A stretch of DNA of 64,000 bases from contig NC_015555.1 of NCBI RefSeq assembly GCF_000189775.2, forward strand, positions 2,429,001 to 2,493,000. The letters are read 5' to 3'. Within the stretch, counting starts at the first letter, position 1. Each line of letters opens with the position of its first letter. The notes beneath the pieces are model-generated. The model saw only the letters and a list, made by a program, of their open reading frames with translations. It made no database searches and was not told the DNA's origin. The DNA is from Thermoanaerobacterium xylanolyticum LX-11. Its GTDB lineage: Bacteria > Bacillota > Thermoanaerobacteria > Thermoanaerobacterales > Thermoanaerobacteraceae. This document shows positions 28,686-64,000 of this stretch, in pieces. A program made the position numbers and the translations under genes.

Positions 28686-28983
28686 TCAATCAACATAAAT
28701 TGTTGTCACTCGTGATATATCTGAACCTTTATTTATTATCCGACAATTTTATTTTCACAGTTTTACCATTAGATCCTTTAATCATCATAGTAATTTCATA
28801 TGATTTACCATACTCTAATTCACCCTTAGGTACAGCTGGGTAATTATTAGGATTATCCTTAACGACCTTGATTAAATCTTTATAATTGTCTTTATTATAT
28901 TCCCACGCCTTCTCGAAAACAATAACTTTATCTTTGCCCCTAAGATCTATAAGATGTTTTTTATTTAAAGCATAATCCGACAT
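28686..28983 (-). pseudogene. DUF6883 protein gene, frameshifted, at the CRISPR array edge
   Basis: From 28983 the frame reads YALNKKH, VIVFEKAWEYNKDNYKDLI, YGKSYEITMMIKGSNGKTV and stops early at 28729. The expected C-terminus (GSDISRVTTIYVD) is present in another frame and ends at TGA 28686-28688, so a small indel near 28735-28745 broke the gene. The family resembles C-terminal domains of polymorphic toxins and stand-alone proteins of about 100-110 residues. The N-terminus is probably also shortened: only nine bases separate the ATG from the last CRISPR repeat. Confidence 0.6.
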
Positions 28984-28992
28984 TTTATTTTT

Positions 28993-29851
28993 GTTTCAAT
29001 TCCACTATGGTTAGATTAAATCGAGCCTTGACAGTAGAGGAAGCGAACTTAATCCACATGTTTCAATTCCACTATGGTTAGATTAAATCTGAAAGTATGC
29101 CAGATAAAGACGCAATTCTTATTATAGTTTCAATTCCACTATGGTTAGATTAAATCGACGAAGCAGTAAGCAAGGTATATGAAATACGGGACATTTGCAC
29201 TAAAAAAATAAAAGAAGAAATAGACAGGTTTCAATTCCACTATGGTTAGATTAAATCCAAAAATATGAGAAACCTAATACGACAGCACAGATATTCGTTT
29301 CAATTCCACTATGGTTAGATTAAATCTTGCAGCTGTTATTGCTAATCCAATGATAGCAGTAGTTTCAATTCCACTATGGTTAGATTAAATCGGAGCTGCG
29401 GCTGGCGATATTTTATTAGGTGCTCCGTTTCAATTCCACTATGGTTAGATTAAATCTACTCGTCGGCACACTTGCAGGAATAGCATTTCCATGTTTCAAT
29501 TCCACTATGGTTAGATTAAATCTCTCCAACCGTGCAAGAACAGATGCAGAAATAGCACGTTTCAATTCCACTATGGTTAGATTAAATCCAACATAAATGT
29601 TAAAAGACAATGCAGGTATACCTGTGTTTCAATTCCACTATGGTTAGATTAAATCTTGCAGTTGTGGCTGTTGCTGCTGCATAAAATAGGTTTCAATTCC
29701 ACTATGGTTAGATTAAATCATTCCTTTCGCCAGCTCTACTAAAATCAATACTTTTGTTTCAATTCCACTATGGTTAGATTAAATCCTAAATCACTTTTAA
29801 CACAACTAAAATCAATATCCAGTTTCAATTCCACTATGGTTAGATTAAATC
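28993..29851 (-). CRISPR. CRISPR array, leader-distal part (13 repeats)
   Basis: Thirteen 30-base repeats, identical as far as I compared, beginning GTTTCAATTCC and ending AGATTAAATC on the plus strand. Read on the minus strand the repeat ends ATTGAAAC, the usual 8-nt handle of clostridial type I-B arrays, so the array is transcribed leftward and these are the oldest spacers. Spacers are 35-38 nt, apart from one of 71 nt at 29157-29227. The repeat at 28993-29022 shows no decay, although terminal repeats of old ends usually do. The fourteenth spacer (starting 29852) is split by an IS4-family element. Confidence 0.98.
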
Positions 29852-29866
29852 TATGTAATATAATTT

Positions 29867-31456
29867 ACTAAAACTTCGCACATAAATAATTACTCTGTTC
29901 CTTGAAAACTTAATGCTTTGCCAGAAAAAAGTAATAGTAATTTACACAATTATGCACACTTCGGAAGTCTTTCCTTAAGTTCTTTGGGAATCGCAGCCAT
30001 AAAAGCATCAAGTAATTGGTCCAGCTGTTCTGAAGATAACGATAGTTTATCTGTTATTGTATCTATGAATACTTGCATAAGTAGATGAAAAGCCTGAATC
30101 AGCGTAATATCGGACATTTCATCCTGTATGTAGTAAAATATCTCTCCCATTGTTCGTAAATCTGATGATCGACGGTTCTCTAGTGCAAGCATCATGTATC
30201 TGGTAAATACGATTGCTGTATGTGCTGTCATCGCATCGTAAGATAATGAATTGCATTCCTTGCTGAGCTTCAAGTATGATTTACACACTTTGAAAAAGAC
30301 TTCTATATCCCAGCGCTTCCCGTATATACGAATGATTTCGTCCTCGTTAAGGTTCATATCCGTGGTAATAAGTGCCAGATAGTCTTTTCGATTATTCCTG
30401 TTTCTGACAAATACAATTCGAGCAGGAATAGATTTTCCGTCTTTTTCAATGGAAACTTCCACGGATAACAGGTATCTAGACCTGCCTCTTCTTTTTCTGT
30501 TCTGCTTGTATATTTCTGTTAACGGCTGCATTATTCCATTATATAGGTAATGCATCTTTGATGTTTTCTTTGCCATTGCAATAACATCATAGCCTATTTC
30601 TTTAATAGCAATCAAAGAAGAGGGAGAACAGAACCAAGTGTCAAACAATACATAAGATGCTGGAATCATTGCTTTTTTAGCGGTCTTTATTAATTCCAGA
30701 GCTACGGCTGTTGCTTTAGTTTGGGATAGATTCCTTCTTAAATACCCGGCGGAACGCTTGTCCACAGGTATAGCTTCATTGATACGATTCTTTTGATTCT
30801 CAGTAGATAAAAGACATCCATTGACTGGGATAAAAGTATTTCCATCTGACCATCCGAGTGTAAGTAGGCGAAAGCCATATTTGTATGTTTTCTTAGCATG
30901 GTCATATACTTTTGCTAGTAGTTCTACTTTTTTAGAGCTAGAGCGTTCGAATAAAGAGTCATCAACAATAAGAACATTTACGCGTTTGTCACTTGTTAAC
31001 CCAGTAATTGTCTCATTTATAATCTGTGCACTAAGCCAAGTGGTAAACCGAATCCAATTAATATGAATAGAGTTTAAGAATCTGTAAACCGTGTCTTTCT
31101 TAAAACCAACCTGATTTGTACCCATTAGCATATTCATATACATAGATCTATTGGTAAAGATCATACAGAATAAGTACTCGAAAATAGAAATAACGGGAAT
31201 ACCCTTGCTTTTGTAAGCATTCGATAACCTTAAAGCAGCCGAAATTCTATATTTTTTGAAGAAACTTTTAATCGAAGTAGAAACCTTATTATCAATTTGG
31301 TAATTTTGTGTTATACTATTCATAGCATGAGCCTCCAATTGGTTTATTTTTTGATAATTCAATTATACCAAAAATGGAGGTCTCATGCTATTTTATAGCC
31401 AAATAATATTGAATTATCAAGGTACAGAGCTACTTTTATAAGTGCGAAGTTTGAGT
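29867..31456 (-). mobile_element. IS4-family insertion sequence inside a CRISPR spacer
   Basis: 1590 bases bounded by imperfect inverted repeats: ACTAAAACTTCGCAC at 29867 and its partner GTGCGAAGTTTGAGT ending at 31456. AATTT at 29862-29866 is repeated at 31457-31461 and is the probable 5-base target duplication. Removing the element and one copy gives a spacer of exactly 36 nt, matching the array. It carries one transposase gene on the minus strand. Confidence 0.92.
29950..31323 (-). CDS. IS4-family DDE transposase
   Basis: 457 residues from the ATG at 31321-31323, chosen because TTGGAGGCTCATGCT precedes it; the frame extends 13 codons upstream without a ribosome site. DDE motifs: VLIVDDSLFERSS (first D), VLFDTWFCSP (second D), and the C-terminal YREK box IYGKRWDIEVFFKVCKSYL with the catalytic Glu. 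It is full length with no frameshift, so the element is likely functional. It lies entirely inside one spacer of the CRISPR array. Confidence 0.93.
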   Translation of the reverse strand: MNSITQNYQIDNKVSTSIKSFFKKYRISAALRLSNAYKSKGIPVISIFEYLFCMIFTNRSMYMNMLMGTNQVGFKKDTVYRFLNSIHINWIRFTTWLSAQIINETITGLTSDKRVNVLIVDDSLFERSSSKKVELLAKVYDHAKKTYKYGFRLLTLGWSDGNTFIPVNGCLLSTENQKNRINEAIPVDKRSAGYLRRNLSQTKATAVALELIKTAKKAMIPASYVLFDTWFCSPSSLIAIKEIGYDVIAMAKKTSKMHYLYNGIMQPLTEIYKQNRKRRGRSRYLLSVEVSIEKDGKSIPARIVFVRNRNNRKDYLALITTDMNLNEDEIIRIYGKRWDIEVFFKVCKSYLKLSKECNSLSYDAMTAHTAIVFTRYMMLALENRRSSDLRTMGEIFYYIQDEMSDITLIQAFHLLMQVFIDTITDKLSLSSEQLDQLLDAFMAAIPKELKERLPKCA

Positions 31457-31482
31457 AATTTATGTATAATAATTTTTTTGTG

Positions 31483-34400
31483 GTTTCAATTCCACTATGG
31501 TTAGATTAAATCGTAAATATTATAAATGGTGTAATTTCTTTTTTTTCAAGTTTCAATTCCACTATGGTTAGATTAAATCATATATTGCATTAGCGAAAGC
31601 AGAATTAAACGATGAAGTTTCAATTCCACTATGGTTAGATTAAATCTACCTATTTGTTGTTCGACAGCCATTACAACATTTTGTTTCAATTCCACTATGG
31701 TTAGATTAAATCCTATTACTTTTGCCAAACTAACCACCTGCCTTTTCTAGTTTCAATTCCACTATGGTTAGATTAAATCTTCCTGAAAATAAGTAATTAC
31801 TACCGTTAACATATGTTTCAATTCCACTATGGTTAGATTAAATCTACCGAAAATTTCTGACGTGATCTCATGTACTTTTCGTTTCAATTCCACTATGGTT
31901 AGATTAAATCCCTTCTTGTATGACCTGACCATTTTGATCTGTAACAGTTTCAATTCCACTATGGTTAGATTAAATCAATTTCTATGAGACATTAGAAAAT
32001 TTGCATGAAAAAGTTTCAATTCCACTATGGTTAGATTAAATCTAACCTTAATAGGTTCTATGTGATGTACTGTATCGTAGTTTCAATTCCACTATGGTTA
32101 GATTAAATCCTGGTTAGTTACAATAGTAGCACCAGTAGCAAGCATGTTTCAATTCCACTATGGTTAGATTAAATCTACCGAAAATTTCTGACGTGATCTC
32201 ATGTACTTTTCGTTTCAATTCCACTATGGTTAGATTAAATCCCTTCTTGTATGACCTGACCATTTTGATCTGTAACAGTTTCAATTCCACTATGGTTAGA
32301 TTAAATCAATTTCTATGAGACATTAGAAAATTTGCATGAAAAAGTTTCAATTCCACTATGGTTAGATTAAATCTAACCTTAATAGGTTCTATGTGATGTA
32401 CTGTATCGTAGTTTCAATTCCACTATGGTTAGATTAAATCTGCGCTGGGTGCAGCACAACCTAATTATGCAACTGGGTTTCAATTCCACTATGGTTAGAT
32501 TAAATCGCCATTATGGCTATACATCAGATTATATTTTTTACAGTTTCAATTCCACTATGGTTAGATTAAATCTAAAAACGCCTGTGCAAGTACATCTTTA
32601 GCTTTAAGTGTTTCAATTCCACTATGGTTAGATTAAATCGCGGATATTGTGTGCGGACAGGCGAAAATAAAGTTTTGTTTCAATTCCACTATGGTTAGAT
32701 TAAATCAAATGCAACAGTATTGTTGATTGATGACTTATACAAGTTTCAATTCCACTATGGTTAGATTAAATCTAATGGTTTTACTGTATCAACTTTTATG
32801 AGATCTGCGTTTCAATTCCACTATGGTTAGATTAAATCTTTGGCAGCAACAGCAATAGATTTTACTACAGCATGTTTCAATTCCACTATGGTTAGATTAA
32901 ATCGTTTGGAAAAGAGAAATATTGATGATGGGTATAAATTGTTTCAATTCCACTATGGTTAGATTAAATCAGAATCTGAAGCAGTTACACTTATAAATTC
33001 AACAAAGTTTCAATTCCACTATGGTTAGATTAAATCAGCAAAATGCTCTGGTATTGGAAGAGATAAATTATGTTTCAATTCCACTATGGTTAGATTAAAT
33101 CCATATATAAGAGCGGCGAAACCGCCGTCATGGCTATGTTTCAATTCCACTATGGTTAGATTAAATCTTTTAAAAGTTCTTTTCTGAAATGCCTCACTTA
33201 TGCGTTTCAATTCCACTATGGTTAGATTAAATCCGGAACGCTTGAATTAAAAAGCGATGTACATGGGCTTGTTTCAATTCCACTATGGTTAGATTAAATC
33301 GAATATAAAGATAAAGCTGATTTTACTACATTTGACGGTTTCAATTCCACTATGGTTAGATTAAATCTTTTAAAAGTTCTTTTCTGAAATGCCTCACTTA
33401 TGCGTTTCAATTCCACTATGGTTAGATTAAATCGCTGCATCTGTCGGAAGTATATAAGCTATAACCTTCTTGTTTCAATTCCACTATGGTTAGATTAAAT
33501 CTAATAATTTAGGTGCAAAAAATGTTGTAGATTATTTGTTTCAATTCCACTATGGTTAGATTAAATCTACGAAATGCAAACTTAGAGAAACATTTGTTGA
33601 ACTGTTTCAATTCCACTATGGTTAGATTAAATCTTACGTCAGAGAATTCAAAGCCTCTTGTAAAGTTTTTGTTTCAATTCCACTATGGTTAGATTAAATC
33701 TACCTTTAAAAACGAGGGGATGGTGTCTAAATTCGCTGTTTCAATTCCACTATGGTTAGATTAAATCTGTTTTGTAGATACAGCGACTTGGGGATTGGAT
33801 TTGGTTTCAATTCCACTATGGTTAGATTAAATCAACTGCTATACTGTTTTTCAGCTTTTGAATTTTTTCGTTTCAATTCCACTATGGTTAGATTAAATCT
33901 CCTCGTTTAATTCTTCTGTGCTTTTCTCTACCATAGTTTCAATTCCACTATGGTTAGATTAAATCCGGAGCAGAACTGGCACAATATGGCCTTGCGACAT
34001 TGTTTCAATTCCACTATGGTTAGATTAAATCTATTCGATGATTTAGGTATGCCGTCAATAATGGTAGGTTTCAATTCCACTATGGTTAGATTAAATCTGT
34101 TTTGTAGATACAGCGACTTGGGGATTGGATTTGGTTTCAATTCCACTATGGTTAGATTAAATCTTTTGGCGTAAACGAACGACTTATAAAATATAAATTG
34201 TTTCAATTCCACTATGGTTAGATTAAATCAATTTGTATCAATCATACTTAGAAGCAAGGAAATGCGTTTCAATTCCACTATGGTTAGATTAAATCGATAT
34301 AGTAATGCAGTTTCAGTTCATGTTTTACATACGTTTCAATTCCACTATGGTTAGATTAAATCAATTCAATATAAATTGTACCGCCTACCTGCTTTGTTGT

Positions 34401-37400
34401 TTCAATTCCACTATGGTTAGATTAAATCCAAGTATACAAAAAACATCCATTTCTAAAAGAAAAAGGTTTCAATTCCACTATGGTTAGATTAAATCTGGTC
34501 TAATCTTGCAAGTGCGTTTCTCACATGAGCGTTTCAATTCCACTATGGTTAGATTAAATCTGAAGGAGGGGGAGGCAGCGTAAAAGAGACAGAACAGTTT
34601 CAATTCCACTATGGTTAGATTAAATCAATCAATTCCTGGCATGTTTCACAGACTGCATTCGTGTTTCAATTCCACTATGGTTAGATTAAATCTCTTTATA
34701 CTCTCTCGTAGTACCGCCGAAATACCAAGTTTCAATTCCACTATGGTTAGATTAAATCTCATTTATAGCATTTTTAATTTGTTCATTTTTTGTGTTTCAA
34801 TTCCACTATGGTTAGATTAAATCAGCAACTGGATCATCAAAGTTAAGAGGTGCTAAGTCGTTTCAATTCCACTATGGTTAGATTAAATCGCCCCAATTTC
34901 ATCGGCTATAAAAGCCGAAGGTCTTAGTTTCAATTCCACTATGGTTAGATTAAATCATCTGTTTTTGCCTTTATTTCATCTGCTGTTACATCGTTTCAAT
35001 TCCACTATGGTTAGATTAAATCTTTTCTTATACCTCCACTATCCTGGTATATTTTGCAGTTTCAATTCCACTATGGTTAGATTAAATCCCTAATAGTTAT
35101 GTCGTGAAATCAGGCGATACGCTTGTTTCAATTCCACTATGGTTAGATTAAATCCCAGAACAAGTAATAAATGGCACTTGGGGTGAGATAGTTTCAATTC
35201 CACTATGGTTAGATTAAATCCTATTTCATCTTTTACCGCATGCAGGTACTTTTTATCAGTTTCAATTCCACTATGGTTAGATTAAATCATATAAGAATTT
35301 TAGGCAAGGTAGTATCTTTTAAATGTTTCAATTCCACTATGGTTAGATTAAATCGCTCTTGGCAATATGCTTAAACTGCTTACAGATTAGTTTCAATTCC
35401 ACTATGGTTAGATTAAATCCTATTTCATCTTTTACCGCATGCAGGTACTTTTTATCAGTTTCAATTCCACTATGGTTAGATTAAATCATATAAGAATTTT
35501 AGGCAAGGTAGTATCTTTTAAATGTTTCAATTCCACTATGGTTAGATTAAATCTTTCTCCAGTTCTCTATCATGTTTACACACTCATAGTTTCAATTCCA
35601 CTATGGTTAGATTAAATCAAACATTGGAGGAGTTAAAAAAAGAATATAAAAAATGTTTCAATTCCACTATGGTTAGATTAAATCGATTTCGCAAATAATG
35701 AATTCCTGCTTAAAGATGGCAGTTTCAATTCCACTATGGTTAGATTAAATCTGCTTAAAAATACAGATCATTGCAAAAGGATCACAAGTTTCAATTCCAC
35801 TATGGTTAGATTAAATCTAAAAAGTACAAGTCAGATTACAGAGCCATATTGAATGTTTCAATTCCACTATGGTTAGATTAAATCTAAAAGCAGCTTTAAA
35901 TAAAATAATGGCTCAAATTGGTTTCAATTCCACTATGGTTAGATTAAATCTTTAATAGACAGAATATTGATAGAGCAGGGTTCCGAGTTTCAATTCCACT
36001 ATGGTTAGATTAAATCCTTATGAAGTGGCATTAGATGTATCGAGGTTTGGTACGTTTCAATTCCACTATGGTTAGATTAAATCCGAAAAAGAGATGATTA
36101 AAAACATTCCCGGGAGGCAGGTTTCAATTCCACTATGGTTAGATTAAATCTATGCTTTTTGTTGTTGCTCGTAAATTTGCAAATCCGTTTCAATTCCACT
36201 ATGGTTAGATTAAATCTCAAGAAGATAATCAGTTCCAGAAGATATAACATAGTTTCAATTCCACTATGGTTAGATTAAATCAAAAATATTATGGTATTGA
36301 TTTGTCAAGTGAATCTTAGTTTCAATTCCACTATGGTTAGATTAAATCTAAATCTTCTTTTGATGCTACAGTTGTTTCTTCTTCGTTTCAATTCCACTAT
36401 GGTTAGATTAAATCGAGAGGCGTAAACAATGAAGTTTGCAAAAAAGTCGTGTTTCAATTCCACTATGGTTAGATTAAATCGTGATTGCTTTCCAGTGTGC
36501 TGCCGGTGCTCCTTTGTTTCAATTCCACTATGGTTAGATTAAATCTAATAACGCTCAAACAAATGGCAATATACAAATTGGTTTCAATTCCACTATGGTT
36601 AGATTAAATCTTACAACTACCACATAAAAGGATTTTTAAAAAACGCGTTTCAATTCCACTATGGTTAGATTAAATCAGGTGTTATGACTGTTTTGTCTAT
36701 GTTAGTAGGTGCGTTTCAATTCCACTATGGTTAGATTAAATCTTAAGCGCCTTCTCTATTGGAGGAAGTTATGCCAAAGTTTCAATTCCACTATGGTTAG
36801 ATTAAATCTTAGTAATGTAAAGGCAAAGTAATGCAAAGCGCAGCAAGTTTCAATTCCACTATGGTTAGATTAAATCTTAAAGGAGTTGGGTTTATGAGCA
36901 AATATATCGATGGTTTCAATTCCACTATGGTTAGATTAAATCTTACAAAACAAGAATAGAAGGGAGACCTTTATACACGTTTCAATTCCACTATGGTTAG
37001 ATTAAATCTATCATTTTCTGTATTAAGCTGTTGTCATCAAGCGGGTTTCAATTCCACTATGGTTAGATTAAATCCCATCAGATATAGCAGCAATTGTGCA
37101 GCGATATAGAGTTTCAATTCCACTATGGTTAGATTAAATCTGCATCTTCGCATGTGGAATACCAACTGTTTTCTTCGTTTCAATTCCACTATGGTTAGAT
37201 TAAATCTACTAAAGCGAAAAGCGAAAGCTTGAAGCGGTAAAGGTTTCAATTCCACTATGGTTAGATTAAATCTACAAGTTATAGCTAAGGCTGATGGGCC
37301 TTGGACAAGTTTCAATTCCACTATGGTTAGATTAAATCTGCTGGGTTATCAACGAGACTATATTCGCTTAACTTGTTTCAATTCCACTATGGTTAGATTA

Positions 37401-40400
37401 AATCCAGGAAGGTAATTATTTATCACCATTGCCACCTTAGTTTCAATTCCACTATGGTTAGATTAAATCTAATGCACCAGCCAATAGCAGTAGGCAAGAC
37501 CATTCACGTTTCAATTCCACTATGGTTAGATTAAATCGAACTTGGATTTACAGAAAAAGTTAACAAATCATCGTTTCAATTCCACTATGGTTAGATTAAA
37601 TCGCGATACGTATAGTAGTATCGTATGCAGAAAATGAGTTTCAATTCCACTATGGTTAGATTAAATCCACTGCAAATTTCTGCGAGTTTTTTCCAAGCTA
37701 CAACGTTTCAATTCCACTATGGTTAGATTAAATCGAATTAAAAAAGAAAATAGAAGAAGAATGTAAAAAGTTTCAATTCCACTATGGTTAGATTAAATCA
37801 GATGACTGAATAAATACTCTTTCGCCGATTTCTTCGTTTCAATTCCACTATGGTTAGATTAAATCCCTGATTTGTAGGCAACAGAATTACGAGTGAAGGT
37901 TGTTTCAATTCCACTATGGTTAGATTAAATCAGCAGTAATAGGAACAGTTATATATATGATTGTTAGGGTTTCAATTCCACTATGGTTAGATTAAATCAC
38001 CCGCATGACTGTAAGGCTGTATTGGTTACATCGAGTTTCAATTCCACTATGGTTAGATTAAATCGAATATTCAAAAGCGTATTTGAGAAACAAAGCAGAA
38101 TCGTTTCAATTCCACTATGGTTAGATTAAATCATAGCTATCTTTTAATACATCTATCCTTTCGTCTTCGTTTCAATTCCACTATGGTTAGATTAAATCGC
38201 CTTTTTGTATTTGTGATATTTTGCCTTTGCTCCCGTTTCAATTCCACTATGGTTAGATTAAATCGAATTTTGAAATCGCCACGTCCTGAAGATCATATAA
38301 GTTTCAATTCCACTATGGTTAGATTAAATCCATTTCCTTTCCCAGATATTAGAATTTGTCGAGACTCGTTTCAATTCCACTATGGTTAGATTAAATCTTG
38401 TTTGTCCATTGTCAGGTCATTTTTCTTAGCGATGTTTCAATTCCACTATGGTTAGATTAAATCGTGCTTTCTTTTGCTGCATTATTTACTTTAGCATTTT
38501 GTTTCAATTCCACTATGGTTAGATTAAATCTTCTTGTTTTTGACGATATTTGTAAGTCGAAAATTTGTTTCAATTCCACTATGGTTAGATTAAATCAAAG
38601 CCTAAAAATATAACTAAAATTCCGATTGCGTAGTTTCAATTCCACTATGGTTAGATTAAATCGGTGAAAGAGAAAAAGGTGGTTATTCAGAAGAAGAAGT
38701 TTCAATTCCACTATGGTTAGATTAAATCTGCTGTAAAAACATTACAGCAACAATTAAATCAATTGTTTCAATTCCACTATGGTTAGATTAAATCCAATGG
38801 GGCAAAGATATGATAAATGGCTTTATAAAGTTTCAATTCCACTATGGTTAGATTAAATCGATAAATATTTGTTAGGTTATCATGCTATCATTTGCTAGTT
38901 TCAATTCCACTATGGTTAGATTAAATCCATAATCAACTATGTCACTAAATTTATATATTTTGTCGTTTCAATTCCACTATGGTTAGATTAAATCCTACAT
39001 AGCTTGTCGTCATATTATCCCATATCACAAGTTTCAATTCCACTATGGTTAGATTAAATCAGGGCCAGATTCATATTTAGCAACACAAGAAATTATGTTT
39101 CAATTCCACTATGGTTAGATTAAATCTTGAAGAGGAGGAAATCGAAGATGAAGAGGATTAAGTTTCAATTCCACTATGGTTAGATTAAATCAATAACTGA
39201 AACAAAAGAAGCCTATTATGATAATAAGTTTCAATTCCACTATGGTTAGATTAAATCAGAGACATAAAGAGATTTAAAGTAACGCCAGATATGGTTTCAA
39301 TTCCACTATGGTTAGATTAAATCTTAAACGACAAAGTTGTTGTTAGAAAATGTTTGTTGTTTCAATTCCACTATGGTTAGATTAAATCTAACGCCACTTT
39401 CAATGTCAATTTTTTCATCGCCTTTGTTTCAATTCCACTATGGTTAGATTAAATCTGCTGTCAAAAGTCCTTTTGCTACCGCCTGTTTTACTGTTTCAAT
39501 TCCACTATGGTTAGATTAAATCAAAAGTTTGTATGTATTGGCTTTTTTGTTTGCTCCAGTTTCAATTCCACTATGGTTAGATTAAATCAGACTATAAATG
39601 GATACCAGAAGAAGGCGAAGAAGAGTTTCAATTCCACTATGGTTAGATTAAATCCTCTCTGGCAAGTTCATCGAACCAATCATCGTCTATGTTTCAATTC
39701 CACTATGGTTAGATTAAATCTGTTTGTCCATCGCATTGAAAACTTTGTGTAATACTGTGTTTCAATTCCACTATGGTTAGATTAAATCTGTATTCCTACA
39801 ATCTTTGTAAATATCTTTGTAAAGTTTCAATTCCACTATGGTTAGATTAAATCTACCGTTAAATATACTTCTTATTCCAGAAATTACGGTTTCAATTCCA
39901 CTATGGTTAGATTAAATCAAATTTGCTTCTCAGAAATCAGGGTATTGAATACGCGTTTCAATTCCACTATGGTTAGATTAAATCGATATGAACTTGACAG
40001 AATATTTCAGCGTAAATAAATGTTTCAATTCCACTATGGTTAGATTAAATCGAACTGTAAGGTGAGAGAAAACAAGAGGACAAGCTAGTTTCAATTCCAC
40101 TATGGTTAGATTAAATCCCTTCAATACTTTACAGAGGGCAGCGTACCAGAAGCAGTTTCAATTCCACTATGGTTAGATTAAATCACATTGGCTCACCTGC
40201 TCTTATTGTTCCTAATATGTTTCAATTCCACTATGGTTAGATTAAATCCAAAAAGCAGATGTTGTTATTTTTACTGACAAGGACGTTTCAATTCCACTAT
40301 GGTTAGATTAAATCCTCCTACAAGTATAAAACCTTCTTCTTCGCCTTCTTCGTTTCAATTCCACTATGGTTAGATTAAATCTTTCAGAAAGTCTAAAAGA

Positions 40401-40714
40401 AATAGTCAAAAAGTACAGTTTCAATTCCACTATGGTTAGATTAAATCTACTGTTATTAATATTCCTAGAGCATATATTTTAAAGTTTCAATTCCACTATG
40501 GTTAGATTAAATCTAGGAGAGTGATTTGTTTTGAGTGTTACCTTGTATACGTTTCAATTCCACTATGGTTAGATTAAATCGGATATTACCTTTTACAGTT
40601 TTTACTGTCACTGAGTTTGTTTCAATTCCACTATGGTTAGATTAAATCAGTTTATGCATCTGTTATTGATTCTACTTATGCTAAGTTTCAATTCCACTAT
40701 GGTTAGATTAAATC
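31483..40714 (-). CRISPR. CRISPR array, main part (140 repeats, type I-B)
   Basis: My hand count gives 140 copies of the same 30-base repeat over 9.2 kb, average unit about 66 bases, spacers about 34-39 nt. With the 13 repeats left of the IS4 element the array has about 153 repeats. The leader-proximal repeat is at 40685-40714, next to the cas6 side. No sequence-variant repeat was noticed. Several spacer blocks are duplicated (31845-32079 with 32176-32410; 33168 with 33368; 33768 with 34098; 35221-35324 with 35420-35523). The apparent proteins full of FNLTIVELK or FNSTMVRLN in this stretch are repeat translations, not genes. Confidence 0.99.
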
Positions 40715-40952
40715 CCACGAAAATTGCATGAAAATACTTTCCCGCTTAAATTCAATTTAACACAACATGAGTTATTTTTCAATACTTTTTAAAATTCCAG
40801 TCCGTTTATTGACATTGTATAAAAATTCAATTTTCATCGTCTCTCCCTTTAGTAACAAAAAACAATAATCTTTTACATTATCAATTTCTTTGTCGACCTC
40901 CTATGTTTTTTACATCGAGAAAGGTCGACAAAGATTGCTCTTTTATAATTAT
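40715..40952 (-). promoter_or_regulatory. CRISPR leader and cas6-array intergenic region
   Basis: 238 AT-rich bases between the cas6 stop and the first repeat on the minus strand, the expected place for the leader with the pre-crRNA promoter and the Cas1-Cas2 insertion signals. Just after cas6 there is a perfect 13-bp inverted repeat (40887-40899 with 40922-40934, TCTTTGTCGACCT and its complement) with a 22-base loop and no T tract. At 40772-40837 a 21-codon frame on the minus strand starts MKIEFLYNVNK behind AAAGGGAGAGACG. Confidence 0.8.
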
Positions 40953-41708
40953 TCATTTTATTTTTTGTATCATTCCAAATCCAGCACTGTTCTTTTCCCC
41001 TAATCCACATTCGTATGCTACTTTTATTAAATCGGGATTACCTGACATCTTAAAAGGTACCATATATCCTTTAACATAAACATTTTTGAATTTTATTCTC
41101 TTCCCATTAGGATTTTTCATATAATAATTTACATCAAAATCTATATTTATATTTAAATTATCTGGAAGCGTGTTATATAAAACATAGTATTTCTCAATCA
41201 AATTATTTTTTATATTTTCAATAAATTGAGAATCATGTAAAGGTAGATTTATACTTTTCCTCTTTCCATCAATTTCAATAGCGGTAGACATAACTATTGG
41301 AGATAAACATATAAATTTATCTTCTCTATTACTGAATTCCGGTTCTTTTAACATCTCCACACTCTTAATCCTAAATTGGTAATCTTGTAATTTTAAAAAC
41401 TCATTGTTTAATACTTCTGTCACAAAATTTAACATAAACTCTTTTTTGGGAGAGGTTATGTATAGGTATGTTTCGTCCAAAAACATTATCTCATCATCGA
41501 TTATTTTGAGCTTTTTACTGCGCAATTGAGAAAAAGTAAATAATTTAAAAACCTTTTTCCCATATTTATATCCTTTTTCGTGAAGGTGTTCCGCAAATTC
41601 TCTATTCGCTTTTTTTAAAGTGTTATATACCCATCCAGATAAAAAATAATTATAATTTATATTTAAGCTTTTATCTTCCTCTGGTAATAATGTTATTTTT
41701 ATCCTCAA
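40953..41708 (-). CDS. cas6: Cas6 pre-crRNA endoribonuclease
   Basis: 251 residues from the TTG at 41706-41708; GAGGTGG is spaced correctly for it and lies in the end of cas2. Ferredoxin-like RAMP features: the N-terminal RIKITLLPEED strand, a likely catalytic histidine in FAEHLHEKGYKYG, and the C-terminal glycine-rich loop GLGEKNSAGFGM. It cuts the repeat RNA of this array 8 nt from its 3' end to leave ATTGAAAC handles. It is the last gene of the operon and lies next to the leader. Confidence 0.94.
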   Translation of the reverse strand: MRIKITLLPEEDKSLNINYNYFLSGWVYNTLKKANREFAEHLHEKGYKYGKKVFKLFTFSQLRSKKLKIIDDEIMFLDETYLYITSPKKEFMLNFVTEVLNNEFLKLQDYQFRIKSVEMLKEPEFSNREDKFICLSPIVMSTAIEIDGKRKSINLPLHDSQFIENIKNNLIEKYYVLYNTLPDNLNINIDFDVNYYMKNPNGKRIKFKNVYVKGYMVPFKMSGNPDLIKVAYECGLGEKNSAGFGMIQKIK

Positions 41709-48937: not shown

Positions 48938-49048
48938 TAGTTTAATAATTGTTTTTTTCGGTTGAGCAAGATTTTCTTGCTTCAAGATTTTTGGCTTCTA
49001 GGGTGGGAAGCTCATCGTCATGATGAGTTTTCTGCCTTTTTATTTTTG
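48938..49048 (+). ncRNA. Probable Na+ riboswitch (DUF1646 motif) with transcription terminator
   Basis: The leader contains a first hairpin (AGCAAGA-TTT-TCTTGCT), a conserved-looking core TTGGCTTCTAGGGTGGGAAGC, and a 15-bp expression-platform hairpin GGTGGGAAGCTCATC (49002-49016) with GATGAGTTTTCTGCC (49022-49036), including G-U pairs, followed by TTTTTATTTTTG. This is a complete intrinsic terminator directly upstream of a DUF1646 transporter gene. The DUF1646 RNA motif was reported as a Na+-binding riboswitch class that controls such genes. The class is assigned from gene context and architecture; I could not compare it with the covariance model. Confidence 0.72.
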
Positions 49049-53257: not shown

Positions 53258-53388
53258 GTAATCACCTCTATAACGCTTTTTTGTTTTTTCTATTTAAACA
53301 TTATAGCGGATGATTCATGTAAGTGGAAGGTATCTTTTGGATGCCTTCCTTTTTCTATTTTTTACCGCCTACTAAAATTATACACTAA

Positions 53389-54623
53389 GAAAAGACATTA
53401 ATTGTAGGTGTAGACATTGCTAAAGAGACACATCACGCTAGAGCTTTTGATTTTAGAGGAATAGAATACGGTAAGCGTATTGAATTTAGCAATGACATTG
53501 ATGGAATGGAAAAATTCTTTAAATGGGCTGTAGAAATTATGAATAAAAGCAACAAAGAGCATTTGATGGTTGGTATGGAACCAACGGGACATTATTGGCT
53601 TTGCTTTGCACAGTTTCTTAGAGATAAGAACCATAAGGTGGTATTGGTAAATCCATTCCACGTAAAAAGAAGTAAAGAATTTGATGACAACTCGCCAACT
53701 AAAAATGACAGGAAAGACCCTAAGACAATTGCAATGCTAGTTAAAGATGGAAGATATGTTGAACCTAATATACCTGATGGTATATACAGCGAGCTTAGAA
53801 TTGCAGTAGACATAAGGGAAATGCTTACAAAGGACTTAAACAAGATAAAAAACCGGGTTGCAAGATGGCTTGATATATATTTCCCTGAGTTTAATAAAGT
53901 TTTTGCAGATTGGGAAGGGAAATAACATTAAAGGAATTTCCAACGCCTGTAAAGATAATAGGTATTAGAGCTGAGGAAATACTTGCAGCTTGGAAGAAAG
54001 AAGTTAATCGTGCTGTAGGTATAAAGAGGGCTTTAAAGCTTATAGAAGCTGCGAGTCAAAGTGTTGGTAAAAGAGATGGCATTGAAATGGCAGAGATAGA
54101 GATAAAAATTATACTTGAACAGTACGAAATGATAGTAAAGCAGATTAAAGAAATAGAAAGCAAAATAGAAGAGCTTTTTATGCAAGTACCTGATGCTAGT
54201 GAAATGCTAGGTATAAGAGGTGTAGGAGTAATAACAGCAGCAACATTTATTGCTGAAGTTGGCGATATAACAAGATATGAGCATCCAAAGCAAATCCAGA
54301 AGTTTGCTGGTTACAATCTGGTTGAGAATAGTTCAGGGCAGCATAAAGGGCAAACCACCATAAGCAAAAGAGGAAGAAGGAGACTAAGAAGTGCTTTATA
54401 CAAAATGATGATGCCCATACTTGCAAACAACAAAGAATTTCAGGAATTACACAAATACTACACCACAAGAAAAGAAAACCCGCTAAAAAAGAAACAGTCC
54501 ATAATAGTTTTATGCTGCAAGTTGATCAGAGTATTTTTTGCCATACTGAAAAAAGGAGTAAAATACGACGGAAATAAGATGTTAAGAGACATAAAAAGAC
54601 CAGAGATTAGGAATGCTGCATAA
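53389..54623 (+). pseudogene. IS110-family DEDD transposase, no start codon and frameshifted
   Basis: DEDD RuvC-like residues are present: VGVDIAKETHHARAFDF, GMEPTGHYW, and DRKDPKTIAMLV. The C-terminal half has the MLGIRGVGVITAATFI helix-hairpin-helix and the serine domain YNLVENSSGQHKGQTTISKRG. Two lesions are seen. The frame opens after a TAA at 53386 without a usable start codon. One A is also missing near 53922 (GGGAAATAAC), so the frame shifts between 53925 and 53910. The upstream end was probably lost when the neighbouring ISLre2 arrived. IS110 elements are steered by a structured noncoding RNA encoded in the element. Confidence 0.88.
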
Positions 54624-55144
54624 ATTGCACCGCCGTGGTGATGATACACCGCAGTCACTCGTCAGTCAAGGGCAAGGACCACGTCTCAGCTTTGCTGCGT
54701 TTCACTTCACAAAGCTAACCCTTGACAGCCTCGCTCCTGCGATGGTTTGAATAATTAAGCGGTGCCAAAAATAAGACAAATAAAGTTAAAAACTCAATTT
54801 AAAAATTCGAAGATTGACAAAGAGAGCCGGAATTGTCAGGTTGGTAATTTCACCATAAGGGCATAAGACCCAGCAATGGAGCATAACTGACATCCACCTC
54901 ATGTAAGGCAGAACGAAGGAATTAAGGACAAAGATCCTGTGAGACATGGGAGGGTATGCCACATGAGCTTAAGTGGAAACCATAGGCCAAAATATGGAAA
55001 AACAATAGAAGCTTATTTAGGTTACCTACCACATGTAAAATTCATGAATAAATAGCATTGATATACATGAGGGCTTCTTTGAAGATTGTGAGAATCTGAG
55101 AATGAGTGAGATATTAAAAGAAAATCAAAGATTATAGAGGGAGG
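54624..55144 (+). ncRNA. Candidate IS110/IS1111 guide (bridge/seek) RNA region
   Basis: 521 bases without a gene, conserved apart from one substitution (A at 55116, G in the other copy) over 481 bases. Nested pairing is visible: GTCAAGGG (54665-54672) with CCCTTGAC (54719-54726), enclosing AGCTTTG (54688-54694) with CAAAGCT (54710-54716), with an asymmetric internal loop and a 15-base terminal loop. In IS1111-type relatives the guide RNA is encoded downstream of the transposase, as here. That this region makes such an RNA is an inference. Confidence 0.4.
54664..55144 (+). repeat. Long inverted repeat, left copy
   Basis: 481 bases that match the complement of 63520-64000 with one substitution by eye. 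The true repeat continues beyond the window on the right, so its full length (likely a whole IS110-family element) is not known. It brackets 8.4 kb of accessory genes together with its partner. Confidence 0.95.
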
Positions 55145-55151
55145 GATTTAG

Positions 55152-55973
55152 ATGAATAATATTAATGTGTTGAATTTTTCTACTAGCGATGAAAAATTTA
55201 AAGCCAGTGGATTGGCACCGGTCATCGGATACGAACCGTGGTCACTTAGAACAATTGAAAGTGTAAAGCAATCAATAGCTGAAGGAATTCCGGTATTGAT
55301 CAGGTTGCATTCTGCTGCTGATTATCCTTGCGTAAACTATGAGCAGGGTTATAAACTAGATAGAGAATCACATGCAGTCATGATTGTTGGTTATGATGAT
55401 GAAGAAGAAATGTTTGATATTGTAGATCCTTGGCAGAAGGCATGGGGAGGTGAATATGGCGGACTTGAAAGACTCCCTTATGATGAAATATTTAATGTAT
55501 GGACCGTTAACTGTTCATTGGATAAGGCAACCAGATTGTCACCACCGACAAAAGAAGTCGAAAAAATTGTTGATGAAAATGGCAATACAAGTGTAAAGTT
55601 GATGATTGGATATTACATTCCCAAAGGTTACATTATTGACGAGAAACAGAATGCGTTTACTTCTTTCGATATTATCGTCAAGTATGAATATGAGGGATTG
55701 GAAAAAAAGTATGAGCATCATTTAAAGGGCAGGTGGAATGTTGGCGAATTGGCAGAAATAATTACACCGATTGGGAAAAATATATCCGGGAATGTTAATA
55801 TTGATTTTCATATTACAGCTACAATTGAAGGCGAACGTCCTTATCATTATAAGGATAAGATAGAGTTTTCTTTCACTGAGAATATGTATTTTGAAGAAAT
55901 AATGTTCAATAAGCAAGGTATCCAGAAGAATTTGCATGTAAACAAAAAAAGTTTTGCATTTACATTTAATTAA
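55152..55973 (+). CDS. C-terminal half of a papain-like cysteine peptidase with beta domain
   Basis: 273 residues. Residues about 30-120 look like the second half of a C1/C39-type peptidase: SIAEGIPVLIRLH, the catalytic-His segment SHAVMIVGYDDEE, FDIVDPWQKAWGGEYG (Asp where papain has Asn) and LPYDEIFNVW. The first half with the catalytic cysteine is absent. Residues about 130-273 form a beta-rich domain. The frame begins eight bases after the IS110 end; a good GGGAGGGATTT lies upstream, partly within the element. Most likely a gene cut by the element, so I doubt that it is active. Confidence 0.6.
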   Translation: MNNINVLNFSTSDEKFKASGLAPVIGYEPWSLRTIESVKQSIAEGIPVLIRLHSAADYPCVNYEQGYKLDRESHAVMIVGYDDEEEMFDIVDPWQKAWGGEYGGLERLPYDEIFNVWTVNCSLDKATRLSPPTKEVEKIVDENGNTSVKLMIGYYIPKGYIIDEKQNAFTSFDIIVKYEYEGLEKKYEHHLKGRWNVGELAEIITPIGKNISGNVNIDFHITATIEGERPYHYKDKIEFSFTENMYFEEIMFNKQGIQKNLHVNKKSFAFTFN

Positions 55974-61563: not shown

Positions 61564-62370
61564 TTATTCTGTAATATTTATATCGCTCTGAGCTCTAAAT
61601 ACTAGCTCACCATTTATAGTTTTTTGACTTTCTTTAGCTCCTAAAATCATTGACATTTCTACAAGTAAATTAATTTTTCTTAAATATCCATTTGTACTTG
61701 AATATATTAATTCAATTGCGTCATCAGTAAATATTGTTTCATTGCAGCCTGCACATTTTAATCTGGTTGTTATATATTCTTTTGTTTCATCTTTGTTTAA
61801 ACCTTTAAATGAATAGTTTAAGACTATTCGCTGCCTTAATGCTTCATGTGCTTGTCTATTCAACTGTATAATTAATTGTGTCTGTCCTGATAATATAAGC
61901 AATGCATAATTTTTTGTATCCATGTCAAAATTAAATATAATGCGTAAATCGTCAAGGATCGAGTTGCTTATGAACTGGGCCTCATCAACAATGATAACAG
62001 GAGTTATGTTCTTTGAATGATAACTTAATATTACATCCTGTATCTGGCGAAACATATCACATTTTCTATGCTTTGGCATTAATCCTAAGCCGTCGGATAA
62101 ATACCTGTAAAAATCCATAACTGTAAGTATTGATATCGGTATGTATACAACCTTGTACATATTAGGATTTAAAGAATTTACAAAGCTTTTTAGTGTATAT
62201 GACTTACCAGATCCAGGATCTCCTGTTATTAACCCAAATCCCTTTTTATCTTTTAAAAATTCTAATCTGCTCATTGCTTGTATATAATCTTGTGATTTGT
62301 AGTGATATTTTACATCACAGTCTTTAGAAAATGGATTAAATGTTAATCCATAATATACATTAAACATCAT
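61564..62370 (-). CDS. AAA+ transposition ATPase (ExeA/TniB-like)
   Basis: 268 residues. Walker A GDPGSGKSYTL (about 49-59), Walker B VIIVDEAQFIS, and sensor I LLILSGQTQL. The opening YYGLTFNPFSKDCD is typical of the ExeA-type ATPases found with DDE transposases. The ATPase would guide target choice and activate the transposase, as MuB, TnsC or TniB do. The ATG at 62368-62370 (or one codon later) is behind AAAGAAGGAAAA; it follows the transposase gene by 16 bases. It appears intact. Confidence 0.88.
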   Translation of the reverse strand: MMFNVYYGLTFNPFSKDCDVKYHYKSQDYIQAMSRLEFLKDKKGFGLITGDPGSGKSYTLKSFVNSLNPNMYKVVYIPISILTVMDFYRYLSDGLGLMPKHRKCDMFRQIQDVILSYHSKNITPVIIVDEAQFISNSILDDLRIIFNFDMDTKNYALLILSGQTQLIIQLNRQAHEALRQRIVLNYSFKGLNKDETKEYITTRLKCAGCNETIFTDDAIELIYSSTNGYLRKINLLVEMSMILGAKESQKTINGELVFRAQSDINITE

Positions 62371-62386
62371 TTTTCCTTCTTTCTAT

Positions 62387-63519
62387 TTACAGAGAAAAGT
62401 CTATTTCTTTTCTTCTTATCTTAGAATTATCAATTTTGTTTACGGGATGTATTGTTTGTAAGAGTTTGCCGTCTTCGCTGAAAATATATGCTTTATCAAG
62501 TGATTTTGGATAATATCGTATATTTACATAATCACCGATATATTGCATTGGTACTTCAAATTTAATTTTTTCTATTGATATTGTGGCATCTTTAATTACA
62601 TGTCTTTTGACTCTATACAGAAATATGTTATCAAGCTCTTCCTTAGAATTTATGAATTTCATCGTGTCAGTATATTTAATAAATTTCTCTATGGGCTTCA
62701 TATTTGTTGATGAATGTACTGTTTGATGATATATTCCTTCAATATATTTATTCAAGTTATCATTCAATTCGTCTATAGAAGATATTTTCTGCCAATCAAA
62801 TCCATACATCCATTGGTCTTTTAATGTTCTGAAAAACCTTTCAATTTTTCCTTTCGATTCTGGCGAATACGGTTCAGCATAACATAAAGACGTTCCTAAT
62901 GAGGCACATATTAAATGCAATTGTTCGCTTTGGAATACCTTGCCGTTATCAACAAATAGTTTTTTAGGAACACCTCTTTTTGAAACAGCTTTTTTAAATG
63001 CATCAATAAGTGATATTACATTATCTGTATCATAAAATTCTGCATGTGTTATTAACCTTGATGAATCATCCAGAAAAGCAATAAGGTACGTCTTGATTTT
63101 CTTATCGTTTATAATTAAGTATGGACCCATAGATATATCAGATTGCCAGCAGTCATTAGGATGCTCCATTTCAAAGGCTCTCCTGTCTTTTATGTTTAAT
63201 GCTGATGTAGATATTTTACTTTTGCGAAGATATCTTTGAATTGTGGATAAAGATACCTTATCAAGCTCGATAAACTTTTTAGCTAAAAGTTCATGATAGA
63301 TTGACTTAGCTGATCTTCTTGGATTATCGAGTTTTAGATTTTTAATATAGGTTTTAACATCATCAGTTAAAACTCTTGAAGCACCTTTGTCACATCTACT
63401 TTTAGGGTATAGACCTTCAAATCCATATTTTCTGTAGCAGTAAAGCCACGTCTTAATTGTATTAGGAGAAAATTCTCTTTTGCCTAATGAAGGCACATCA
63501 TAAACTTTAGAAGTAATTA
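62387..63519 (-). pseudogene. Mu/TniA-like DDE transposase, N-terminus cut by the IS110 repeat
   Basis: About 377 codons remain in frame. HTH region (REFSPNTIKTWLYCYRKYGF, GLYPKSRCDKGASR), then the rve core: CWQSDISMGPYLI (first D), KKLFVDNGKVFQSEQ (second D) and SPESKGKIERFFRTLKDQW (E). A C-terminal beta-barrel-like region follows (KFEVPMQYIGDYVNIRYYPKS). The frame (EVITSKVYDVPSLGK) begins exactly where the inverted repeat ends at 63519/63520. The usual 50 or so N-terminal residues are missing. A GTG at 63494-63496 could start a shortened product, without a clear ribosome site. Confidence 0.8.
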
Positions 63520-64000
63520 CCTCCCTCTATAATCTTTGATTTTCTTTCAATATCTCACTCATTCTCAGATTCTCACAATCTTCAAAGAAGCCCTCATGTA
63601 TATCAATGCTATTTATTCATGAATTTTACATGTGGTAGGTAACCTAAATAAGCTTCTATTGTTTTTCCATATTTTGGCCTATGGTTTCCACTTAAGCTCA
63701 TGTGGCATACCCTCCCATGTCTCACAGGATCTTTGTCCTTAATTCCTTCGTTCTGCCTTACATGAGGTGGATGTCAGTTATGCTCCATTGCTGGGTCTTA
63801 TGCCCTTATGGTGAAATTACCAACCTGACAATTCCGGCTCTCTTTGTCAATCTTCGAATTTTTAAATTGAGTTTTTAACTTTATTTGTCTTATTTTTGGC
63901 ACCGCTTAATTATTCAAACCATCGCAGGAGCGAGGCTGTCAAGGGTTAGCTTTGTGAAGTGAAACGCAGCAAAGCTGAGACGTGGTCCTTGCCCTTGACT
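63520..64000 (-). repeat. Long inverted repeat, right copy (IS110 3' region)
   Basis: Complement of 54664-55144, one substitution at 63548. The nested stems of the left copy recur at 63938-63999. The copy reads leftward, so its transposase should lie to the right of the window. It ends against the truncated DDE transposase gene. Confidence 0.95.

Follow-up and report, generated by a model that had tools for sequence, protein, structure and literature searches.

A candidate bridge RNA encoded by the right end of an IS110-family element from Thermoanaerobacterium, with guides that match Shine-Dalgarno sites

What does an IS110-family element carry in the 521 bases between its transposase stop codon and its right end? 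The question arises at positions 54624-55144 of the window, i.e. the 64,000-nucleotide stretch of Thermoanaerobacterium xylanolyticum LX-11 DNA analysed here (bases 2429001-2493000 of a 2.53-Mb chromosome). The interval has no open frame, as the original prediction stated (no ORF of at least 80 amino acids), and was proposed to encode a structured guide-type non-coding RNA 3' of the transposase, with nested stems whose unpaired 15-base loops resemble guide loops. Based on comparisons to related elements, we propose that it very probably holds the bridge RNA (seekRNA) of the insertion sequence, encoded 3' of the transposase and guiding recombination. The candidate RNA thus lies inside the interval as foreseen, but at 54818-54996 and not in the nested hairpins at 54628-54767 (Table 1).

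Table 1. Positions in the window of the element and of the predicted RNA features.
Feature	Position	Strand	Basis
IS110-family transposase gene lacking its start, with 10-nt frame-breaking deletion near 53922	53398..54623	+	Pfam, NCBIfam, intact copies
Copy A, IS110-family element, 5'-truncated, right end intact	53388..55143	+	alignment vs copies B-F of same genome
Copy B right-end part, runs past window edge	63514..64000	-	487 nt, 99% identical to copy A region
Three-tier palindrome GCACCGC...GCGGTGC enclosing the originally predicted stems	54628..54767	+	fold; recurrence after stop codon in some relatives
Candidate bridge RNA (seekRNA) scaffold, transcript ends approximate	~54818..54996	+	conservation, covariation, covariance model
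Putative target-binding loop 1, closed by GTCAG (54835-54839) / CTGAC (54887-54891)	54835..54891	+	helices 2, 3
Putative right target guide TTTCACC, complement of GGTGAAA, would pair with top strand of right target half	54848..54854	+	right-flank match
Putative left target guide AATGGAG, same as top strand of left target half and core, would pair with bottom strand	54875..54881	+	left-flank match
Putative donor-binding domain: P2 TCCAC/GTGGA, P3 CTCATG/CATGAG, P4 GGCA/TGCC, inner hairpin AGGA/TCCT around loop 2	54893..54977	+	helices 4-7
Putative right donor guide AGGAAT, complement of ATTCCT in left end GCATTCCTG	54917..54922	+	co-change in Lachnospiraceae
Putative left donor guide GGGAG, same as right-end terminus AGAGGGAG	54948..54952	+	sequence; right ends of relatives
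Right terminus GAGGGAG	55137..55143	+	right junctions of copies and relatives

The genome contains six copies or large fragments of the element (A-F), whole copies being 98-100% identical among themselves, and same-genus genomes carry it at 94-96% protein identity, with named records from T. butyriciformans and T. saccharolyticum at 94-95%. The transposase contains the Pfam domains DEDD_Tnp_IS110 (1.1e-32) and Transposase_20 (5.8e-23), an intact copy matches NCBIfam IS110 at 4.2e-74, and among solved transposases IS621 is closest in sequence (8wt6, E 5.9e-14, the match covering just the C-terminal part). The 427-residue frame is intact in copies C, D and E, the last being interrupted farther downstream, and copies A and B carry an identical 10-nt frame-breaking deletion. 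In copy A, the left end is missing at the junction with an ISLre2/UPF0236 element; its left flank is therefore unusable as a target, and target flanks were taken from copies B-E and from relatives. Copy B retains its left end and has its right terminus at 63521. The right boundaries fall at 55143/55144 in copy A and 63521/63520 in copy B; the GAG of AGAGGGAG is common to element end and target, and the crossover is not placeable within it.

Two arguments originally advanced for an RNA carry little weight. Conservation in the second copy is uninformative because copy B stems from recent transposition, with an equally identical transposase gene and the disabling deletion in common. The length, held to exceed the need of an element end, is accounted for by a palindrome of ~140 nt, a guide RNA of ~180 nt and a right-end stretch of ~150 nt.

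The evidence that carries the proposal comes from related elements, collected from 80 genome loci. The block matching 54818-54996 is kept in ~65 relatives from Clostridia and Bacilli, and it is here that covariance analysis among relatives, envisaged from the start, located a covarying RNA scaffold. In an alignment of 36 sequences, seven named helices have 88.8% of their cells paired, compared to 30-48% for slid structures, and both-sided changes affect 19 pairs and 84 cells (28.7 +/- 5.2 in shuffles, 0/500), the structure having been derived from the very sequences in which pairs were counted. It was read by eye with the pairs counted separately, and partial misalignment of helices 5 and 6 lowers the counts; RNAalifold on the raw alignment returns a weak consensus. 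A covariance model of 19 relatives, with no Thermoanaerobacterium sequence, matches the window at 54833-54978 and 63686-63831 (E 3.8e-25) and the whole genome in five places only, all in copies of this element and solely downstream of its transposase. At the Rfam gathering threshold, there is no match in 54624-55144; the only one in the window is a Na+ riboswitch (DUF1646) at 48960-49012 (+), with 60.2 bits. The block would be transcribed with approximately the ends given in Table 1; TTGACA at 54814-54819, kept in clostridial relatives, was considered as the -35 element of an RNA promoter, and no -10 lies at the usual distance.

In this scaffold, loop 1 is enclosed by helices 2 and 3, which are paired in 98% and 95% of cells with compensatory changes, and contains an inner hairpin (GGG 54859-54861, CCC 54869-54871). 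Its guides TTTCACC and AATGGAG would each pair with one strand of the target in the chromosome, ATGGAG|GTGA, the predicted target for the element being ATGGAGGTGA. Across relatives, the left guide agrees with the left flank at a mean of 5.44 bases vs 2.83 when permuted (0/20,000), or 5.19 vs 2.40 in 37 distinct combinations. Agreement of the right guide with the right flank is lower (4.82 vs 3.98, 0/5,000), and this putative guide is weakly supported; relatedness among many of these sequences means that the permutation figures overstate independence and should not be taken as strict probabilities. Loci added once the pattern had been formulated include unusual guides accompanied by the same flanks (TTTGTA, ACGAAA, TATTGGA and ACGA), the TTTGTA guide occurring with three insertions in one genome, all at matching targets. 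Within the genus, GA precedes the left end at all insertion sites and GGA at most, and right flanks are mostly GT(G/A)A or similar. Several insertions of this element depart from the guide, with left flanks such as TAATAGA, AAAGAGA and AAATGA.

Loop 2 presumably serves the donor. Its guides AGGAAT and GGGAG would pair with the joined ends of a circular element, AGAGGGAG|CATTCCT, giving the predicted circle junction AGAGGGAGCATTCCTG. The AGGAAT guide goes with the left end GCATTCCT, and Lachnospiraceae relatives combine the guide AGGAAG with the left end GCTTCCT, a joint shift that reads as compensatory for pairing with the donor. In the mechanism that we propose, the bridge RNA would bind the transposase and bring donor and target together, likely followed by RNA-guided recombination at the shared GAG.

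It is conceivable that the conserved block, lying as it does inside a mobile element, is a DNA-level binding site used for transposition only and has no function as RNA. A guide RNA, unlike a DNA site, is expected to show what is seen here, namely seven helices with compensatory changes together with two pairs of guides that follow target and donor on both strands, and we regard a DNA-only role as very improbable. Still less credible is the notion that the guide RNA is formed by the nested hairpins at 54628-54767, with their 15-nt loops as guides. The quoted stems GTCAAGGG/CCCTTGAC and AGCTTTG/CAAAGCT are indeed present, at 54664-54728 in the non-coding end of the element, and the hairpin part folds more stably than shuffles (z -3.4), as does the whole region 54624-55144 (-134.2 kcal/mol vs -115.7 +/- 5.2, z -3.6). 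The same architecture recurs right after the transposase stop in some relatives (L067, L068, L079, L169 and L178) with compensatory arms, pairing being better within lineages than between them and weak for the window's own middle arm. The proposed loops CAAGGACCACGTCTC and CTGCGTTTCACTTCA, however, do not exceed shuffles in their match to the flanks and agree with the donor junction at no more than 4 bases. A lack of donor and target matches had been named as grounds for abandoning the RNA; it holds for these loops, but those of the neighbouring bridge RNA do match. Moreover, the palindrome is missing from most relatives that retain the guide RNA, the first 180 bases downstream of the transposase being common to few relatives only, and its inner motif is also found away from IS110 elements.

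The hairpins are a real structure, dispensable for the guide RNA. We lean towards an accessory palindrome that some elements carry after the transposase gene, for example as a transcription barrier or a stabiliser of the mRNA 3' end. Such a role fits a position directly 3' of the stop codon, the optional occurrence among relatives and the dispersal of the inner motif GTCAAGGG(N12-42)CCCTTGACAG in Bacillota, where it occurs in 18 of 299 genomes vs 1 with a control pattern, adjoining various transposases in some and ordinary genes in others. It fits less well that a scan of copy D detected no terminator-like site with a T-run at the palindrome, which could alternatively be an independent regulator or a palindrome that is itself mobile. 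As this reading concerns the hairpins only, it is compatible with a bridge RNA at 54818-54996.

Where would such an RNA direct the element? The predicted target reads as a Shine-Dalgarno sequence in Thermoanaerobacterium and in most clostridial relatives. In a first set of junctions, from Thermoanaerobacterium and one Thermoanaerobacter, the start codon of an ORF with at least 129 codons follows 6-11 nt after 10 of 22 distinct right junctions. Among further relatives, such a start codon comes just after the insertion in 22 of 31 whose guide is of the GGA type, and in 1 of 35 with the GGCA-type guide, the Bacilli type that is aimed elsewhere; for random positions the share is 12%. Part of this enrichment arises because the guide itself spells Shine-Dalgarno, and 33% of GGAGG occurrences in this genome lie before a start. 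Judging from guides and junctions, the bridge RNA of the clostridial branch appears aimed at Shine-Dalgarno sites. At copy A, GAGGGAG and the next target G form a Shine-Dalgarno sequence, and the gene at 55152 starts 8 nt further on. The inserted right end, AGAGGGAGG...ATG, would accordingly rebuild this signal before the interrupted gene, leaving the downstream gene with a ribosome-binding site and, presumably, its expression. A paper tying IS110 elements to Shine-Dalgarno targeting was not found in the open-access literature.

The left end of the element, ~117 nt, may complement this arrangement. It contains TTGAAA-17-TAAAAT with an extended -10; promoter-like matches are no commoner in this stretch than in shuffles, and the argument for a promoter therefore rests on the conserved position. 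Within the promoter-like spacer, the arm GTACCTCC could pair by its complementarity with the Shine-Dalgarno of the transposase gene ~50 nt downstream. It is seen at L020:3545-3690, the left end of copy D, and is the same in copies B, C, E and F. The long leader folds with the Shine-Dalgarno sequestered (z -3.3), and the short leader lacking the arm does not (z +0.4). An inverted repeat of at least 7 nt is found in 65% of 84 distinct leaders vs 1.5% of shuffled ones, its sequence differing between lineages, and the arm is upstream of the predicted transcription start in 20 of the 20 leaders with both features, a generous count, as one of these is a short terminal match and another has its promoter at a different position. 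On transcripts from a host promoter, the arm would mute translation of the transposase. Taken together, a wider scenario can be drawn of a Bacillota-wide IS110 subfamily whose clostridial bridge RNA is programmed to Shine-Dalgarno sequences: the ribosome-binding site would be rebuilt and host genes stay expressed, and a conserved anti-Shine-Dalgarno arm in the element's own promoter would mute the transposase on host-initiated transcripts, amounting to a safe way of settling in active genes, within their 5' leaders. We consider this scenario about as likely as not.

Known systems provide the framework for these assignments. The bridge RNA of IS621, from the IS110 group, has a target and a donor loop that each match both DNA halves (Durrant et al. 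2024, PMC11208160). The present element resembles it in combining an IS110-family transposase with one RNA whose target and donor loops each match both DNA halves. It differs in that the RNA is encoded in the right end, whereas that of IS621 is in the left end, in the reversed order of the guides and in a transposase that is ~100 aa longer. The seekRNA elements of the IS1111 group, such as ISEc11, ISPa11 and ISKpn4 (Siddiquee et al. 2024, PMC11187229), share with it an RNA 3' of the transposase and a top-strand match located 5' of the bottom-strand match. Membership in IS1111, with transposases of 330-350 aa and subterminal inverted repeats (PMC11187229), is however ruled out by the 427-aa transposase and by the repeats: a search for IS1111-type subterminal inverted repeats of 7-17 bp gave a longest perfect repeat of 5 nt between the two 40-base ends. 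The transposase length instead falls within the 395-455 aa of IS110's own subgroup, for which an RNA in the right and not the left end is atypical. Published exceptions to the left-end RNA are the 'green group' elements of PMC11187229 (Fig. 1b), IS110-type with a downstream non-coding region. With an IS110-type transposase and a long non-coding region downstream, the element is likened to them by description, the text of that paper naming the group but giving neither this RNA nor its guides and target, and they are probably the nearest described kind. We accordingly describe the element as an IS110 subfamily with a right-end-encoded RNA and IS1111-like guide order, which neither main group fits neatly. 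The RNA itself lies in the non-coding end of an IS110/IS1111-family element and has a conserved structure with two internal loops, one complementary to both target strands and the other to the joined element ends; by every sequence criterion applied, it is a bridge RNA/seekRNA. The mechanism as such is known, and the combination of features and the address appear new among searchable papers.

More than 80 loci thereby represent naturally diversified bridge RNAs, with target and donor guides that are directly readable and co-changed with their DNA partners, i.e. ready material for studying how IS110 transposases are addressed. The predicted address of the clostridial branch, a ribosome-binding site, is unusual and is present upstream of very many genes. 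Sources such as Thermoanaerobacterium and Thermoanaerobacter may in addition yield heat-stable systems.

Further observations concern the surroundings of the copies. Copy B sits directly before an rve/Mu-type integrase frame, at the target ATGGAGGTAATTAC; this frame and an ATPase-like protein are the two genes at 61564-63496 (-). The right terminus of copy C is tandemly repeated before its target gene (59 bp, L019:5686-5762), likewise at L070, L191 and L209. A 134-bp right-end piece of the element, 95-96% identical, is found inside a multi-copy repeat (L026:4325-4458, L024, L025, L027-L029 and L021), in L026 just 3' of an ISLre2-like (UPF0236-like) transposase. Elsewhere in the window, 28967-41000 is occupied by a very long CRISPR array with the repeat GTTTCAATTCCACTATGGTTAGATTAAATC and internally duplicated spacer blocks.
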